Shown here piece after piece: positions 28,776 to 42,036 of a stretch of 64,000 bases of DNA. Each line of letters begins with the position of its first letter. Position 1 is the stretch's first letter. Source of the stretch: Microvenator marinus (GTDB lineage Bacteria > Myxococcota_A > Bradymonadia > Bradymonadales > Bradymonadaceae); assembly GCF_007993755.1 (NCBI RefSeq), contig NZ_CP042467.1, forward strand, positions 3,062,001 through 3,126,000, written 5' to 3'. Both the position numbers and the translations under genes were made by a program. The notes under the pieces are model-generated. The model did no database searches. It was not told the origin of the DNA and worked only from the letters and a program-made list of their open reading frames with translations.

Positions 28776-28928
28776 CGCCAACTCCTTTGCAGCGTTGAGC
28801 TCCTTGTAGCGATCCCGGCGGCGAAAAAAAATAAAAAAATTTCTCAACTCTTCCTTCAACCGTCCGAAAACCTTTTCTGAGGGCCAGAAGTGTCCTCATC
28901 GAACAACACCTAAACGTTGGAGGACATC

Positions 28929-31900
28929 ATGGGCAACGCCCTTCTAAATATTGAATCGCACGATACCGGCTCTCTCATTCAACTTGGCGACTGGATTAGC
29001 CTCGCGCAGCATCTTGGGCTTCGCACAAAGCCCCTGCGGCTCGTGAATTTCGCGCTCGGCCAGTGGGGGCTCGACATGTTGGAACACCTGCGTGTGGACC
29101 TACTCCATTCGGATGGGTCGTTCCGAGTTCTTCTGGTCACAGGCCAATGCGACAACGGGCTCGCCCGCTCGGCAATGACCACCTTGCATCGGCGAAATCC
29201 GAACGACGTCACGCTCTGGTTCTGGGCAGATACCGAGCGGCTCAGCGTGGCCATGGTCTCTGAGCGAGAAAATGAAAAGACCTTTGTTCGCCGCATGTCT
29301 TTGATGCGCAGCCGTCCGGACCCGGTGGGCATCAAACAGCTCGAGGCCCTCTTTCCGCGCGATTGGGTCGCACCGGACCAGGCCGACCAAGGGCTCGCAA
29401 TCAGGCGCTACCTGGAGAGCGTGCTCGATCAGGAGACGCTCACGCGGGAGTTTTTTCAGGCGTTTCGCCGGGCGCTCGAGCTCCTTCAAAGCACCATGCA
29501 CCACGGGCCCGAGGACTTGAGGCAAGCACACGACGTGGCGCTTTTAACGTTGCTCCGCGTGCTCTTTCTCTACTTTTTACAGGCGCGCGGGGCGTTGCGC
29601 TCAGACCCGCATTTTCTGATTCGTGCGTGGCGCCAACGCTCCCGCGACACGTCGTTCTACCGAAGCGTGATTCAGCCGCTATTTTTCAGCGCATTGAACA
29701 CCCCCGAAGATGAGCGCGACCCCAACAACGCTTTGCTTCAAGGGATTCCGTTTCTAAACGGTGGACTCTTTGACCCAAGCCCGGTGGAGCTTGCGCATTC
29801 GCGGATCGACTGGCCCGACCGAACCTTCGAGCTCCTGCTCGAAGAGGTTTTTGAACGCTATCAGTTTGCGCTGAGCGAAGGCGCCGAGGATGACGAAGAT
29901 CGAGTCATCGACCCCGAAATGCTCGGCAAAGTCTTTGAAGGCCTGATGTTCCAGGACGCAAGGCACCGCTCAGGCGCCTACTACACACCGCGTCACGTGG
30001 TGCGTGAAATGGTGGCAGAGGTCTTTGCGGCGCACCTCAAGGACCGCGCCGGGCTTAGTGAATCCAGGGTTCACGAGATCCTGAGCGGCGCCACGCTAAG
30101 CCTCGATGAGCGCGACCTGATTCGTGACGCCCTCGAAGACCTCACGATCTTGGACCCGGCCGTCGGTACAGGCGCGTTTCTTCTCGAGTGTCTGCGCGTG
30201 CTCGCCGGCCTCTGGGCTCAGGTTGAGGGGAGCAAGCCTGACCACACGAGGCTTCGTGAGATTATCCATCGCCATCTTCACGGCGTGGATATCAACCCCA
30301 CTGCCACAAGGCTTTGCGAGCTTCGGCTCTGGATTGCTCTGCTCGGTGCCACGCCCAAATCCGAGACCGGAGCCATGCCGCCGCTCCCAAATCTTGGGCA
30401 CCGAATCGTCTGCGGTCAGTCGCTCATCGACCCTGAGGAGATCGGTATGTATCGTGCCAACCTCTCGCGGCTTTTTGGACATAATTGGCGATATTCAGAA
30501 AACTCAGAAAAGCTCAAGACCCTGCAAGACCGGTATCTGACGTGCCACGGCTCCAAGAAGTTTGAGCTCCGACGAGAGCTCGAAAGCTACCATCGCGAGG
30601 TCTTTACGGACCTCTTAGCCCACCGAGTCTCCCAGCTCGAAGAAGAAATCGAGGGCCTCAATAAACTCAAGAACTCGCGCGATCTCTTCGGCGACCCGCA
30701 GGGATTGAGCCCCGCGACCGAACAACACCTCTTTGCGCTGGTGAATGAAGCCGAGCGCCTCCGGGCCTGGTCTCGCGAGGTTCACGCGCAGAACACTGGT
30801 TCGCCCACATTTAGCTACGCCCTGAACTTCCCGCATGTGGCCCAGAATGGCGGCTTCGACATCATCGTGACAAATCCTCCATGGGTTCGTGCTCAGGCGA
30901 TTCGGACTGAGGAGCTCGAACACTACAAACGCCGGTTCGAAGTCACACGTCCTGCCACGTGGTCCGAGGCCGATAGGCGCGGCATTTCGTCGAGTTTTGG
31001 CTCGCAGGTGGACCTGGCCGCAATCTTTCTGGAACGCTCGCTCGAGCTCATGAAACCCGGCGGACGGCTTGCCGCACTCATCCCTGCAAAGATCTTCAGG
31101 TCTCTCAACGGATGCGCCACTCGCCGCGTGCTTTCGCGCTATCATATCGAGCGAATCGTCGATTACTCGGACTCACCCGACGAGCTCTTTGACGCCACAA
31201 CCTATCCGGGGATCGTGCAGATTGCGGACGTCGCAGCCACAGGCACCCGGGTGAGCGTTGTGGGCCCCGACGGCACCCAAGATTGGAGGCAGGACCTTGC
31301 GATGAACGGCGAGCCGTGGCTCTTGGTACAGCCCGGCGTGGAGTCCATCTTCAACAAGATGATGGACGTGGGTCCCGGATTTCTGGAGCCCTGCCGCGGC
31401 ATTTTCACCGGCGCAAACTCGGTCTTTATCCGCCCCGAAGAAGACTTTCTGCTCATGCTCGGCGACGAGGCAAAACCCTATCTTCGCCGCGTTCTGAGTG
31501 GCCGAGACCCTCGTGGCGAATCCTCACTCAGGATTCTTTGGTGCTACGATGAACACGGGGAGGTCTTGAAGGAGATTCCGCCAGAGATCGAAGGCTATTT
31601 CGAGGCAAATCGCACCACGCTCGAGGAGCGGTCGGACTACGATCCACGTCTGCCTCTCTGGCAAGTCTTCCGAGTACGACCGGATACGTGTGCGCCGAAA
31701 ATCGTCTGGAGGGATATCGCGCCCGAACTCGAAGCCATCGAGGTTCCGGCACGCGCGGTACCGCTCAACACGGTCTACTACTTGCCGACCCAGTCTGAAG
31801 AAGAAGCGACCGAGCTGCAAAGATTCTTGAACTCACTTCCGGTCAAGGCCTTCGCTCGCGCCGTGGCGGAGCGGGCGCGCGGCGGCTACCGAAGGCATTT

Positions 31901-32012
31901 CGCGTGGGTGGTCAAACTCATTCCGGTCCCCAAAGACGGCTATGGTCTCAACGCGCTTGAGATGCAACGTCTCAAGGCCTGGTTTGAAAGGGAGGTGGCA
32001 CCATGGAGATGA
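28929..32012 (+). CDS. Large Eco57I/PglX-like DNA adenine methyltransferase
   Basis: About 1,027 residues from the ATG at 28929, with GGAGG 5 bases upstream. A beta-rich N-terminal region (about 1-200) with LTREFFQAFRRAL resembles the start of other long PglX/Eco57I-type methylases. The core has a GAYYTPRHVVREMV helix, SAM motif I DPAVGTGAFLLE near residue 410, VDINPTATRLCELRLWI, and the adenine-N6 catalytic motif NPPW near residue 649; the C-terminal third looks like a target-recognition region. No PD-(D/E)xK motif was recognised by eye. The 3' end overlaps the helicase gene by 10 bases, so the two are one functional unit, probably a restriction or phage-defence system. Confidence 0.92.
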   Translation: MGNALLNIESHDTGSLIQLGDWISLAQHLGLRTKPLRLVNFALGQWGLDMLEHLRVDLLHSDGSFRVLLVTGQCDNGLARSAMTTLHRRNPNDVTLWFWADTERLSVAMVSERENEKTFVRRMSLMRSRPDPVGIKQLEALFPRDWVAPDQADQGLAIRRYLESVLDQETLTREFFQAFRRALELLQSTMHHGPEDLRQAHDVALLTLLRVLFLYFLQARGALRSDPHFLIRAWRQRSRDTSFYRSVIQPLFFSALNTPEDERDPNNALLQGIPFLNGGLFDPSPVELAHSRIDWPDRTFELLLEEVFERYQFALSEGAEDDEDRVIDPEMLGKVFEGLMFQDARHRSGAYYTPRHVVREMVAEVFAAHLKDRAGLSESRVHEILSGATLSLDERDLIRDALEDLTILDPAVGTGAFLLECLRVLAGLWAQVEGSKPDHTRLREIIHRHLHGVDINPTATRLCELRLWIALLGATPKSETGAMPPLPNLGHRIVCGQSLIDPEEIGMYRANLSRLFGHNWRYSENSEKLKTLQDRYLTCHGSKKFELRRELESYHREVFTDLLAHRVSQLEEEIEGLNKLKNSRDLFGDPQGLSPATEQHLFALVNEAERLRAWSREVHAQNTGSPTFSYALNFPHVAQNGGFDIIVTNPPWVRAQAIRTEELEHYKRRFEVTRPATWSEADRRGISSSFGSQVDLAAIFLERSLELMKPGGRLAALIPAKIFRSLNGCATRRVLSRYHIERIVDYSDSPDELFDATTYPGIVQIADVAATGTRVSVVGPDGTQDWRQDLAMNGEPWLLVQPGVESIFNKMMDVGPGFLEPCRGIFTGANSVFIRPEEDFLLMLGDEAKPYLRRVLSGRDPRGESSLRILWCYDEHGEVLKEIPPEIEGYFEANRTTLEERSDYDPRLPLWQVFRVRPDTCAPKIVWRDIAPELEAIEVPARAVPLNTVYYLPTQSEEEATELQRFLNSLPVKAFARAVAERARGGYRRHFAWVVKLIPVPKDGYGLNALEMQRLKAWFEREVAPWR

Positions 32013-34261
32013 AGCAATGGTTCCAGCACGCGCTCCATCTCGTCGGTCACGCTGGTGGGCAGCGCCAAGAGTCGGACCTTCGTGAGTTTCAGCTCGTCGC
32101 GGCGAGGCGAATTGCCATGATGGCTCAGACGTACGGGGTCGCGCTCGAGGCCGATGCAACCGGTCTCGGAAAGACACGGACCTGTGCCATGGCGGCGATC
32201 TTAGTTAGGAATCAGGCGCGGTCGAAGCATCCGATCGTGCTCGTGGTGCCTCACCGAGTTGCCGGCATGTGGCGTGCCACGTTGGAGCATTTGAACGTGC
32301 AAAAAGAGAATTTCCGAGTCATGAGCCACACCGACTTGAGCCGCGGAAAGCCTTTACCTAAAGCCTGTGTGGTGGTCGTAGACGAGGCGCACCGATTCAA
32401 GAATCCCGAGGCGATTCGCACTAAAACACTGGTGCGGGGCCTCGGCGATACGCCATTAGTTCTGGCTACAGCCACGCCTGTCATCAACTCAATCTGGGAC
32501 CTTTACCATCTCTTGGAGATCGGTATGAGTGATACCGCCTGTGTGCGAGTGTGTGGACGCGGCCTGAGGCGCGCATTTGAGGAGGCCGAAGCCGGCGCCT
32601 TTGACCTTACTCAACTCCTCCAGGCCGTGAGCGTCAGACGCGTCACTCCTGACGATCCGACGCTTCGGCGACCCAAGGCGAGGATCGAAATCCTGAGGTA
32701 TGACCCCGACCCGGACGAGAACTGGCTCTGGCAGAATCTCGGCCGAGAGCTCGACCGACTCAATTTTGCGATCTTCAGAAATGACTGGCCCAAGGGCCTC
32801 ATGGTGGAGCATATCCGCCGCCTTTGGGAAGGTGGGGCCGAGTGTTTGCTGAATTTCGTGGAGTACATACTTACGTTTCACGAGCGCTGGATCGAGCTGC
32901 GTGCGCAGGGGCGTGAGCTTGGGCGCCACGAGTTTGAGGCCTGCTTTGGGCCTACCCACCAACAGAATGCATTTGCGTTCATGTTCGAGGCCGCGCAGCC
33001 CCAGATTGGAGACTCAGACCTGAGCCTCGTCAAAGAGGACCTCGAGGTTTGGAAGGACCTGCACGCGCGGCTCAACCGGCTAAGCCAGGCGCGCACCGGG
33101 CTTGAGGCTGCGCTTTGTGGGCTCTTGAGCTCTAGGCCAGAGCCGCTGCTCATCTTTACGAGCTTTCAGAAGGCTGCTGAAAGACTCTATCAGTGCATCT
33201 GCGAGTTCCTCGGTGGGCAGGCTCGGGTGGCGCTCATCACTGGAACCACGGCTGTAGCGACCGGGCTTGGCAGGACCAACCCGGGGGAGCTTCTGGAGCG
33301 GTTCGCGCCGCGTGCGCATGGGCGTGAAATCGAGCCGCATCAGCAGATTCAGGTCTTGGTCTGCACGGATTGTCTCTCCGAAGGCGTCAACCTTCAGGAT
33401 TGTGGGCGCATGGTTCTTGGTGATCTACCCTATACTCCGCAGGGTATCGAGCAGCGAATCGGGCGTATCTGCAGACCCGGGAGCATGTTCGGCGAGGTGG
33501 AAGTATGGCTCCCTCGACCACATTCCTGGAACGACAGTCTGGGCCTTAGGACTCGCCTCAACACCAAGATTGATGCGGCTGAGACGGCGGGGACGCCCTT
33601 TCAAACGGTTGGCACAAGGCGTGCCAAGCAAACTGAGCTTCCGGCGTTGGCGGCGATGACTCGGCTCGACGAGTTGGCGGCGCGCTTTGGACGTGAGTTG
33701 AACCTTGAGAATCAGCATTGGGAGGTAGATGGGCCCGAGGACGAACTTTGGGCGGTGGTTGAATACATGGATGGAGAGTTGTCTTGGCGGAGGTTGGTGT
33801 ATTTTCGGGACGGTAAGGAGGCCACGCTGGTGAACGCGTTGGAGAAGGTCCCACGGCTCGTTGAGAGCGCGCAGACCTTGATTCCAGCGGAGCCTCCCGA
33901 GTGGTTTGAGAGGTGGCTTGAGCGGGAAGAAGACCGGCTCAATGGTGCCGTCCTGGCGCCGGCGAATTTGGACGCGAGACAGACCGAGATATGGCGGCTG
34001 ATTCGCAATATGTGTGATGCCGAGGAGGTGGCGGACCTGCGTCAGCGCGTCTTGCAGCCGCTGAGTCGTGCCGAACTAGAGGGTCTTGTGGGTGCAAAGG
34101 ATCCGGTTGCAGCCGCGCGCGGGCTTAAGGCGCGGCCGGCCCGACGCATCCGGCTTGTACACGCGGGCTCAGTCGCGTCTAATCCACAAACGAAGACGTC
34201 CAAGCCGGCAATTCAGGCTTCTTCTCCGACTTCAAAAGCTTGTGCCACTCCGCATCTGTGA
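32003..34261 (+). CDS. SNF2/SF2-type helicase paired with the methylase
   Basis: 752 residues, ATG with GGGAGGTG just upstream. Helicase motifs: I ATGLGKT (about 52-58), Ia VLVVPHRVAGMWR, II VVVDEAHRF (about 127-131), III VLATATPV, then motif V SEGVNLQDC and motif VI QRIGRICRPG near residue 485. This is the SNF2/Rad54-like group also seen as DrmD in class 1 DISARM. No nuclease domain is evident. The last 28 codons lie over the end of the convergent DUF3160 gene, suggesting the 3' end was extended by read-through after arrival at this site. Confidence 0.92.
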   Translation: MEMKQWFQHALHLVGHAGGQRQESDLREFQLVAARRIAMMAQTYGVALEADATGLGKTRTCAMAAILVRNQARSKHPIVLVVPHRVAGMWRATLEHLNVQKENFRVMSHTDLSRGKPLPKACVVVVDEAHRFKNPEAIRTKTLVRGLGDTPLVLATATPVINSIWDLYHLLEIGMSDTACVRVCGRGLRRAFEEAEAGAFDLTQLLQAVSVRRVTPDDPTLRRPKARIEILRYDPDPDENWLWQNLGRELDRLNFAIFRNDWPKGLMVEHIRRLWEGGAECLLNFVEYILTFHERWIELRAQGRELGRHEFEACFGPTHQQNAFAFMFEAAQPQIGDSDLSLVKEDLEVWKDLHARLNRLSQARTGLEAALCGLLSSRPEPLLIFTSFQKAAERLYQCICEFLGGQARVALITGTTAVATGLGRTNPGELLERFAPRAHGREIEPHQQIQVLVCTDCLSEGVNLQDCGRMVLGDLPYTPQGIEQRIGRICRPGSMFGEVEVWLPRPHSWNDSLGLRTRLNTKIDAAETAGTPFQTVGTRRAKQTELPALAAMTRLDELAARFGRELNLENQHWEVDGPEDELWAVVEYMDGELSWRRLVYFRDGKEATLVNALEKVPRLVESAQTLIPAEPPEWFERWLEREEDRLNGAVLAPANLDARQTEIWRLIRNMCDAEEVADLRQRVLQPLSRAELEGLVGAKDPVAAARGLKARPARRIRLVHAGSVASNPQTKTSKPAIQASSPTSKACATPHL

Positions 34262-40625: not shown

Positions 40626-41408
40626 TTGAACGCTGCCGATTACATCGAAGAGCTCCAGACAAATGGGCGGCTCGTATTCACCACCAACGACGCTGTGAGG
40701 GCGCTCGGCAAATCTGTAGCAGCTGTCCGCGCACAGTTGCGGAGACTTAAGGAAAAAGGCCGTATAGCTGATCCGTACCGCGGCTTTCACGTGGTAGTCC
40801 CCCCAAAGTACCGGCGGCTCGGGTGCCTCCCCCCGGATCACTTCATTCCACAACTGATGGAGCATCTCGAGCAACCTTACTACGTGGCCTTGTTGAGCGC
40901 TGCTGCGTACCACGGCGCGGCACACCATGCCCCGATGGTGTTCCAGGTCATGGTTCCGCGGTCTCGTCGAAGCCTCGAGTGCGGTGGGGTGCGAGTGGAC
41001 TTCATCGCCCGCCAAGACATGGAGTTCACGGCCGTGATCGATCGCGATACACCAACAGGTATTCTACGCATTGCATCGCCAGCTGCGACCGCTGTCGAGG
41101 TGGTGGGCTACCCTGAGCGCTGTGGCTTTCTTGACAATGTTGCAACGGTACTTGCCGAGCTGGCCGAATCGATTGATGCAGATGCTCTCGAAACCGAGGC
41201 GAGACGCGCTCCTACGGCATGGGTACAACGACTTGGATATCTTCTTTCGCTGGTTGATCAGGAGGGGCTCGCGGAGCGTTTGGACGGTGTTCTCGCTGAG
41301 CGCAACGCCTTCACCGTGGCCCTCGCACCGTGGAAAGAGGTGGAAGGCGTAGCGAGAAACGCTCGTTGGCAGGTAGCCGTCAACGTGGAAGTGGTGCCGG
41401 ACGTATGA
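40626..41408 (+). CDS. abiEi: AbiEi-family antitoxin / transcriptional repressor
   Basis: 260 residues, TTG start with GAGG 8-9 bases upstream. An N-terminal winged helix (FTTNDAVRALGKSVAAVRAQLRRLKEKGRI) is followed by YRGFHVVVPPKY, the family block YYVALLSAAAYHGAAHHAP, VDFIARQDM and a typical PAATAVEVVGYPERCG segment. AbiEi proteins are antitoxins of the type IV AbiE system and repress their own operon. The stop overlaps the toxin start by 4 bases, the usual layout, but the toxin gene is broken, so this protein may now act only as a repressor. Confidence 0.9.
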   Translation: MNAADYIEELQTNGRLVFTTNDAVRALGKSVAAVRAQLRRLKEKGRIADPYRGFHVVVPPKYRRLGCLPPDHFIPQLMEHLEQPYYVALLSAAAYHGAAHHAPMVFQVMVPRSRRSLECGGVRVDFIARQDMEFTAVIDRDTPTGILRIASPAATAVEVVGYPERCGFLDNVATVLAELAESIDADALETEARRAPTAWVQRLGYLLSLVDQEGLAERLDGVLAERNAFTVALAPWKEVEGVARNARWQVAVNVEVVPDV

Positions 41409-42036
41409 TTCGAGAGCAAGCTATAATCGAGTGGCGTCGTGAGGCACCCTGGAGCGCGGACTGGATGGTCGAGCAAGACCTCATCATCAGCCGCGCTCTC
41501 GTGGAGTTGTTCTCCTCATCAGAGCTAGCTGATCGGCTGGCGTTCCGCGGTGGGACTTCTCTCTATAAGCTTCATCTTCCTCCGGCCCGCCGCGTGAGCA
41601 CTTCTCTGAGCTCGGTTTGGTCAAGGTGCCCTTCGAAGTCAAAAGCCAGTGGTTCCAAGGCTCCACCTCCGTGACTACCTTTCCGCTCGACGAACTCCTG
41701 GGCACCAAGCTACGCGCACTCTACCAGCGGAGCAAGGGTCGCGACCTGTTTGACCTCTACTACGCTCTTGGTAGAGGCAAGACGAGCGCGGACCTCCTGA
41801 TTAGGTGCTTCAACCGCTACATGAACGAGGGAAACCACTCGGTCACGCGTGCGCTCTTTGAGTCCAACCTCCACGAGAAATCGAAGCGCAAAGACTTCCG
41901 GAACGATATGGAGCCGCTACTCCGCCAGGGTTTATCATGGGACTTCGAGGAGGCACTCGAAATTGTGCTCACCGAACTCATCACCAAGCTGCCGGGCGAT
42001 CCCTGGAAGGGTCTCTCGTCCGACTCACCGGCATAA
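41405..42036 (+). pseudogene. abiEii: AbiEii nucleotidyltransferase toxin with core deletion and frameshift
   Basis: The ATG overlaps the antitoxin stop. The first about 62 codons read MIREQAIIEWRREAPW up to AFRGGTSLYKLHLPPAR, the classic AbiEii N-terminus. The next expected block (YSEDIDLV, the nucleotidyltransferase active site) is missing; the sequence jumps near 41592 to REHFSELGLVKVPFEV in another frame, continues through FPLDELLGTKLRALYQRSKGRDLFDLYYAL, and ends at 42036. From family length, roughly 250-300 bases appear lost. The toxin should be inactive. Confidence 0.85.

Follow-up and report, generated by a model that had tools for sequence, protein, structure and literature searches.

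A nuclease-less adenine methylase and SNF2 translocase pair, vertically inherited in the class of Microvenator marinus: a candidate domesticated restriction-modification module

A stretch of 64,000 nucleotides from the chromosome of Microvenator marinus (assembly GCF_007993755.1, contig NZ_CP042467.1, positions 3,062,001 to 3,126,000, referred to here as the window) carries two overlapping genes, one for a PglX/Eco57I-type N6-adenine methylase and one for an SNF2-family translocase that has no nuclease domain. Comparison with relatives firmly indicates that the pair descends from a widespread restriction-modification (R-M) system in which a PLD nuclease fused to an SNF2 helicase is paired with a PglX-like adenine methylase. 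The reading favoured here, with a probability of roughly 0.55, is that the pair is a domesticated former R-M module, an N6-adenine methylase and an SNF2 translocase with a chromosomal epigenetic role. The R-M pair is a known kind of system, what is new is the nuclease-less and vertically fixed form, which is neither a DISARM fragment nor an ordinary case. The parts on which the argument turns are the following.

28929..32012, + strand: PglX/Eco57I-type gamma-class N6-adenine DNA methyltransferase, 1027 aa (from the open reading frame (ORF), its translation, Pfam, an AlphaFold2 model and fold matches)
31326..31940, + strand: target recognition domain (TRD) of the methylase, TaqI_C-like, residues ~800-1004 (from Pfam, fold matches and the comparison of core and TRD identity)
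32003..34261, + strand: SNF2-family double-stranded DNA translocase/ATPase, 752 aa, without an N-terminal PLD (HKD) nuclease (from the ORF, Pfam, an AlphaFold2 model and fold matches)

A homologue search with a profile built from the window-clade methylases recovered relatives in many bacterial phyla, in archaea, on plasmids and on viral contigs, and most of these adjoin a homologous SNF2 helicase; with hidden Markov models of the window clade both partners were found adjacent or a few genes apart in most of ~110 loci. Outside the window clade the helicase is ~1,090 aa long and has an N-terminal PLD (HKD) nuclease, with PLDc_2 (PF13091) matching at 4e-13 in a 1097-aa Nostoc homologue, and almost every full-length relative, across many bacterial phyla and the archaea, has the motif HxK...GSSN. 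As far as sequence can place it, the true kin of the window pair are these PLD-SNF2 plus methylase systems, which have the homologous motor and methylase adjacent to each other with the same intact catalytic motifs, and from which the window clade differs in having no PLD, in being vertical and near-universal and in a TRD whose divergence matches that of the core.

The helicases of the window clade have Walker A close to the N-terminus; neither the window helicase nor the other members were matched by a PLD-region profile, even with hmmsearch --max. The motor-core tree puts the 30 nuclease-less helicases other than that of locus L084 together in a single group (SH-aLRT 99); their sources are the window's class, Gemmatimonadota, Acidobacteriota and one viral contig. 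The label of nuclease presence or absence needs one change on this tree, counted with the contig-cut rows L148 and L150 removed and with L174 and L183 taken as PLD-bearing, and L084 falls on the nuclease-less side with a support of 91. The tree is unrooted, and its direction is taken from the PLD form being the widely distributed one; read in this way, it places the loss of the N-terminal PLD nuclease from the helicase in the ancestor of the window's clade. The original prediction had considered that homologues might always sit with subunits that are lost here, and this proved partly so, in that elsewhere the helicase has a nuclease domain. The L084 helicase itself (L084:3714-6911) is 1066 aa long; its N-terminal region is about as long as a PLD domain but has no HKD motif. 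It is not claimed as a degenerate-PLD intermediate, since neither the hmmsearch E-value of 5.6 nor the hhalign probability of 0.4% is significant. Just one nuclease-less pair, L162 (IMG/VR 3300003315), was found on a viral-classed contig; it is akin to that of Acidobacteriota locus L090 and is maybe misclassified host DNA.

The nuclease-less pair is a vertically inherited, near-universal chromosomal core pair in the window's class (probably Bradymonadia), the hosts being mostly predatory bacteria. It is found in 39 of 41 genomes from five families, with the methylase in 19/21 genomes of the window's own family and in 5/5, 6/6, 8/8 and 1/1 of the four others; the two genomes of the window's family that have no methylase are draft assemblies in 750 and 1270 contigs, and in two further families of the class it was found in 0/16 genomes. 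The helicase directly adjoins the methylase in all 33 loci with enough contig, the exceptions being contig ends, which answers with a yes the earlier question of whether the pair recurs alone, and the gene order in the window clade is methylase then helicase with no inserted genes. The closest relative of the window pair, in genome G043, is the one rearranged pair of the family, its methylase and helicase being divergent with two ORFs of 387 and 426 aa between them, for neither of which does Pfam give a match. When methylase and rpoB trees of 23 genomes are compared, 13 of 20 bipartitions are common to both (label shuffles give a mean of 0.36 and a maximum of 3), and the Mantel r between the two genes is 0.93 (0/5000 permutations), or 0.86 within the window's family.

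R-M systems typically exchange or diversify their TRD at a far higher rate than their catalytic core changes. Core and TRD identity were compared for each pair of proteins by direct pairwise alignments, and an alignment-based version agrees. In the nuclease-less set of the class, TRD identity is 0.33 at a core identity of 0.40-0.45 and 0.62 at a core identity of 0.65-0.80, and in none of the 329 pairs does it fall below 0.25, whereas in the nuclease-bearing relatives, which come from scattered lineages so that gene exchange contributes to their TRD turnover and to part of this contrast, 59%, 47% and 48% of pairs are below 0.25 at core identities of 0.40-0.45, 0.45-0.50 and 0.50-0.55 respectively. 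With nuclease-less members from other phyla added the pattern is kept, with at most 1% of pairs below this value. The TRD of the window clade diverges no faster than core identity predicts, and such slow divergence suggests a constant target motif. A single nuclease loss coincides with a shift from a mobile, TRD-diversifying state to a vertical one with a slow TRD, making the pair a natural experiment in R-M domestication, in which the motor is kept; in the usual orphan methylase the restriction subunit is gone altogether.

Under the epigenetic reading the helicase of an ancestor dropped its PLD nuclease, with the intact methylase, its TRD and the SNF2 motor staying in one overlapping operon, and the pair then ceased to behave as mobile defence and became a vertical, near-universal chromosomal gene pair. 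The methylase would most likely mark a fixed adenine motif chromosome-wide. In the relatives the motor presumably finds unmethylated DNA and drives the nuclease. The motor of the window clade would only translocate; at targets that are unmethylated or hemimethylated it would probably remodel DNA-bound proteins or clear them away, and the methylation state would thereby control occupancy or expression. The net picture would be an orphan epigenetic methylase that has retained its motor. A stronger version, that the pair is a class-wide epigenetic system in which a dedicated SNF2 chromatin-remodeller-like motor reads the methylation state set by the adenine methylase and remodels DNA-bound proteins, is offered tentatively and at somewhat less than even odds. 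If true it would be the bacterial counterpart of the descent from R-M systems that has been proposed for eukaryotic SWI/SNF ATPases. The question of why these bacteria keep the motor bears on whether DNA methylation and SNF2 remodelling can be linked in bacteria.

The window pair has two traits of an orphan regulatory DNA methylase with a CamA/Dam/CcrM-like role, namely no cognate nuclease gene in the locus and lineage-wide vertical conservation. CamA is an orphan methylase that every C. difficile genome carries and that sporulation requires (PMC8187626), and it is the closest solved fold to the window methylase (Z 30), being likewise a nuclease-less, lineage-wide conserved gamma-class adenine methylase, but it has no described motor partner.

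Several points weigh against an epigenetic role. The CamA match reflects a common methylase/TRD fold and is not an indicator of function, the slow TRD divergence and vertical inheritance are compatible with stable defence, and retention of a motor is unusual in a purely epigenetic methylase. The methylase also diverges fast, at ~4x the rate of rpoB. The pair has moved, as the window genome and G043 carry it at different chromosomal sites, and a homologue of the 308-aa gene that flanks the pair in the family is found at 2.20 Mb in the window genome, which indicates that the pair was relocated there to its present site. Finally, we infer the physiological role, the methylation of one motif and the methylation-dependent action of the motor.

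The main rival is a non-cleaving anti-phage barrier, in which the methylase would mark self and the motor would load on unmethylated incoming DNA and block its replication or transcription, a mode of action suggested, in broad outline, for BREX-like systems. The defensive ancestry is clear, with relatives found on plasmids, on viral contigs and in some cases beside defence-like genes, their best matches being DrmD and the PADLOC type C3a139 'HKD+Snf2', to which their helicase belongs, and the window clade has kept both motor and methylase with catalytic residues invariant. In defence systems patchiness and TRD diversification prevail, as in the nuclease-bearing relatives, and near-universal vertical inheritance with a TRD pacing the core is atypical of defence. 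A precedent of sorts is ARMADA, which gives protection with a similar set, a PglX-like methylase and helicases of the SNF2 and YprA types, and for which the accessible part of the source reports no classical DNase (PMC12458937). On balance the barrier is considered possible and rather unlikely, so the earlier suggestion of a minimal defence system stands as a possibility and is not favoured for a vertical, near-universal pair with a slowly diverging TRD.

It is a good deal less probable that the pair is a working R-M system with its nuclease supplied in trans by another gene. Two SauUSI-like PLD-helicases at 3.46 and 3.60 Mb of the window genome could be candidates, but such genes are patchy (18/57 in the class) and absent from most pair-bearing genomes, and they were rejected as the class-wide missing nuclease for this patchiness. 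In family f5 the gene downstream of the helicase encodes UPF0102, a YraN-type protein with a predicted PD-(D/E)xK fold, and a nuclease in trans is conceivable there; across the class, however, the flanks vary by family, no nuclease is among the genes scanned around the window pair, and the TRD does not have the diversification seen in nuclease-bearing relatives. Flanking genes are conserved within lineages, which fits vertical inheritance, and differ between families, with an M50 peptidase, the 308-aa gene, a response regulator and an M20 peptidase in several genera of the window's family, a UbiE-like methyltransferase and UPF0102 in f5, and a HAD-like gene common to L084, L085 and L087. At L070, L071, L072, L075 and L077 of f5 the UPF0102 gene comes after the helicase, with both on one strand in the loci inspected. 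An in-frame TAG breaks the methylase (L077:5025-8123) of the f5 genome G136. The two SauUSI-like enzymes of the window genome are of the type IV PLD-helicase kind (C1:3602690-3605890, L231, and C1:3461030-3463825, L232), and the one of 1066 aa seems, as read from its sequence, to start with a HIT-like domain.

A nuclease could also be hidden within the pair itself, and this has to be judged against the layout of the two proteins, whose further features are these.

28919..28923, + strand: GGAGG, a ribosome-binding-site-like sequence 5' of the ATG at 28929 (from sequence)
28983..29348, + strand: N-terminal alpha/beta domain of the methylase, residues ~19-140 (from secondary structure and alignments)
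29421..29888, + strand: helical spacer of the methylase, residues 165-320, MmeI/DrdV/LlaGI-like (fold matches begin at residues 152-171)
30153..30179, + strand: methylase motif I, DPAVGTGAF, residues 409-417 (from sequence, with invariant residues in the alignment)
30873..30884, + strand: methylase motif IV, NPPW, residues 649-652 (from sequence, invariant in the alignment)
32072..33562, + strand: SNF2 motor core, residues 24-520 (from the AlphaFold2 model and fold matches)
32162..32176, + strand: Walker A, GLGKT, residues 54-58 (G54, G56, K57 and T58 invariant in the alignment)
32381..32392, + strand: Walker B, DEAH, residues 127-130 (invariant in the alignment)
33452..33481, + strand: motif VI, QRIGRICRPG, residues 484-493, with the arginine fingers (Q484, R485, G487, R488 and R491 invariant)
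33620..34258, + strand: C-terminal region of the helicase, residues 540-752 (poorly conserved, low-confidence model)

The hidden nuclease would sit in methylase residues 19-140 or in the helicase C-terminus and would make the pair a complete two-gene restriction system. The methylase model is good (pLDDT 84, pTM 0.87), and its fold matches are CamA (Z 30 over 476 residues), BrxX (28), M.BseCI (27), LlaGI (24), MmeI (24) and DrdV (24), all of which span residues ~150-1020 and say nothing on the fold of residues 1-165. The N-terminal alpha/beta domain does occupy the position of the nuclease in type IIG enzymes, as in those like MmeI and DrdV, but no conserved D/E/K catalytic set is found in residues 1-165 among 13 family members and wider alignments, and on this ground a PD-(D/E)xK nuclease there is improbable. 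A sequence search of the PDB with the domain gave chance matches only. Relatives that have the PLD domain as their nuclease carry this N-terminal domain too, and it therefore does not stand in for a lost nuclease. For the helicase the model is confident for the SNF2 core only, where INO80, ISW1 and Snf2h match with Z ~26, matches that show fold and not function, and the C-terminus is its least conserved part. A hidden nuclease is accordingly given very little credence.

Both ORFs are intact, and the overlap of 10 bases (32003-32012) is as originally described, so that a two-gene methylase-helicase module without a visible nuclease is what the window holds. The methylase matches Eco57I at 5.4e-23 together with N6_Mtase in Pfam, the helicase SNF2-rel_dom and Helicase_C. 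An alternative methylase start is possible at an in-frame TTG at 28917, and GGGAGG precedes the start of the helicase, giving each gene a Shine-Dalgarno-like sequence. At its 3' end the helicase overlaps a convergent DUF3160 gene by 83 bases. G+C content at third codon positions is 0.70 and 0.68 for the two genes, like that of adjoining genes, and so gives no sign of recent import.

The least probable account, and one hardly to be credited, is that of a decaying R-M remnant retained by chance. One domain has been lost, and a broken AbiE locus nearby is a sign of decay of defence genes in the region. Yet DPAVGTGAF, NPPW, GLGKT, DEAH and QRIGRICRPG, all noted earlier, are present and the catalytic motifs of both proteins are invariant in alignments of relatives at 30-45% identity, which argues that the pair is neither chance nor decay; the motifs are conserved across class-wide divergence and the pair is unbroken in nearly all genomes, so the remnant account is already contradicted. 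Judging from these alignments both catalytic sites are clearly constrained, and to call the pair an orphan part of a system understates it. The AbiE locus lies 6.4 kb downstream of the pair (window 40626-42036, + strand), which qualifies the description of the surroundings as housekeeping-like, a description that does not hold purely. Its antitoxin AbiEi is recognised by AbiEi_1 at 2.2e-46, and the toxin AbiEii is split into two overlapping frames, 41330-41674 and 41617-42036, with the middle missing, so that the system is probably broken.

Amongst known systems the highest-ranking matches in PADLOC and NCBIfam are partial and fall well short of the cut-offs; for the methylase they are type IIG methylase, DrmMI and MAD2, and for the helicase DpdE, DrmD and PLD-helicase. 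Class 1 DISARM (DrmD-DrmMI-DrmA-DrmB-DrmC) also has an SNF2 helicase beside a PglX-like methylase, but the helicase scores 69 bits against the DrmD model NF038317 (cut-off 610), the score for NF038318 is 65 (cut-off 950), the DrmMI model gives a partial match of 75 bits to the methylase, and drmA, drmB (DUF1998/MZB) and drmC are not at the locus. As expected from the original prediction, Pfam found no drmA/B/C and no S (specificity) subunit, nor PglZ or DUF499, among the ten flanking genes scanned around the pair. The likeness to DrmMI-DrmD or to a split type ISP enzyme that had been drawn does not amount to membership. The type ISP enzymes LlaGI and LlaBIII and the type IIG/IIL enzymes MmeI and DrdV have the same spacer-methylase-TRD arrangement (methylase residues ~152-1004, Z ~24), but they are single polypeptides with their own PD-(D/E)xK nuclease and the ISP helicase differs.

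BREX needs PglZ and BrxC with PglX in one locus, and DUF499-centred systems (Hma/BR) require a DUF499 ATPase and DUF3780. A type-2 BREX-related group of these DUF499-centred systems has an HKD-Swi2/Snf2 fused effector and an N6-methylase (PMC12839542). ARMADA is like the window pair in its BrxHII/RapA-like SNF2 helicase and PglX-like methylase, and unlike it in requiring a YprA-family helicase gene in the locus (PMC12458937), which is absent among the genes flanking the window pair. Membership of DISARM, BREX, BR/Hma, ARMADA and MADS was rejected on profile scores and missing partners.

The window genome is 5.85 Mb in one contig, with the pair at 3.09 Mb. Its sole PglZ is at 3.54 Mb in a separate BREX locus with its own PglX and BrxD, and this PglX is the weak methylase match L002; DUF499 (PF04465) has no match anywhere in the genome, and MZB matches are at 3.74 and 5.48 Mb, the nearest ~640 kb from the pair. 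The BREX-like locus (C1:3536500-3556000, L230) encodes a PglZ of 962 aa, BrxD, a PglX of 1742 aa, which exceeds the best PglX model (1428), and a 1627-aa protein. Amongst the more distant relatives, in loci L032-L035 from cyanobacterial and Deinococcus plasmids, variable genes lie between the methylase and the PLD-SNF2 helicase, encoding a DUF262 protein, a nucleotidyltransferase and a SLATT protein, and these may be exchangeable accessory effectors.

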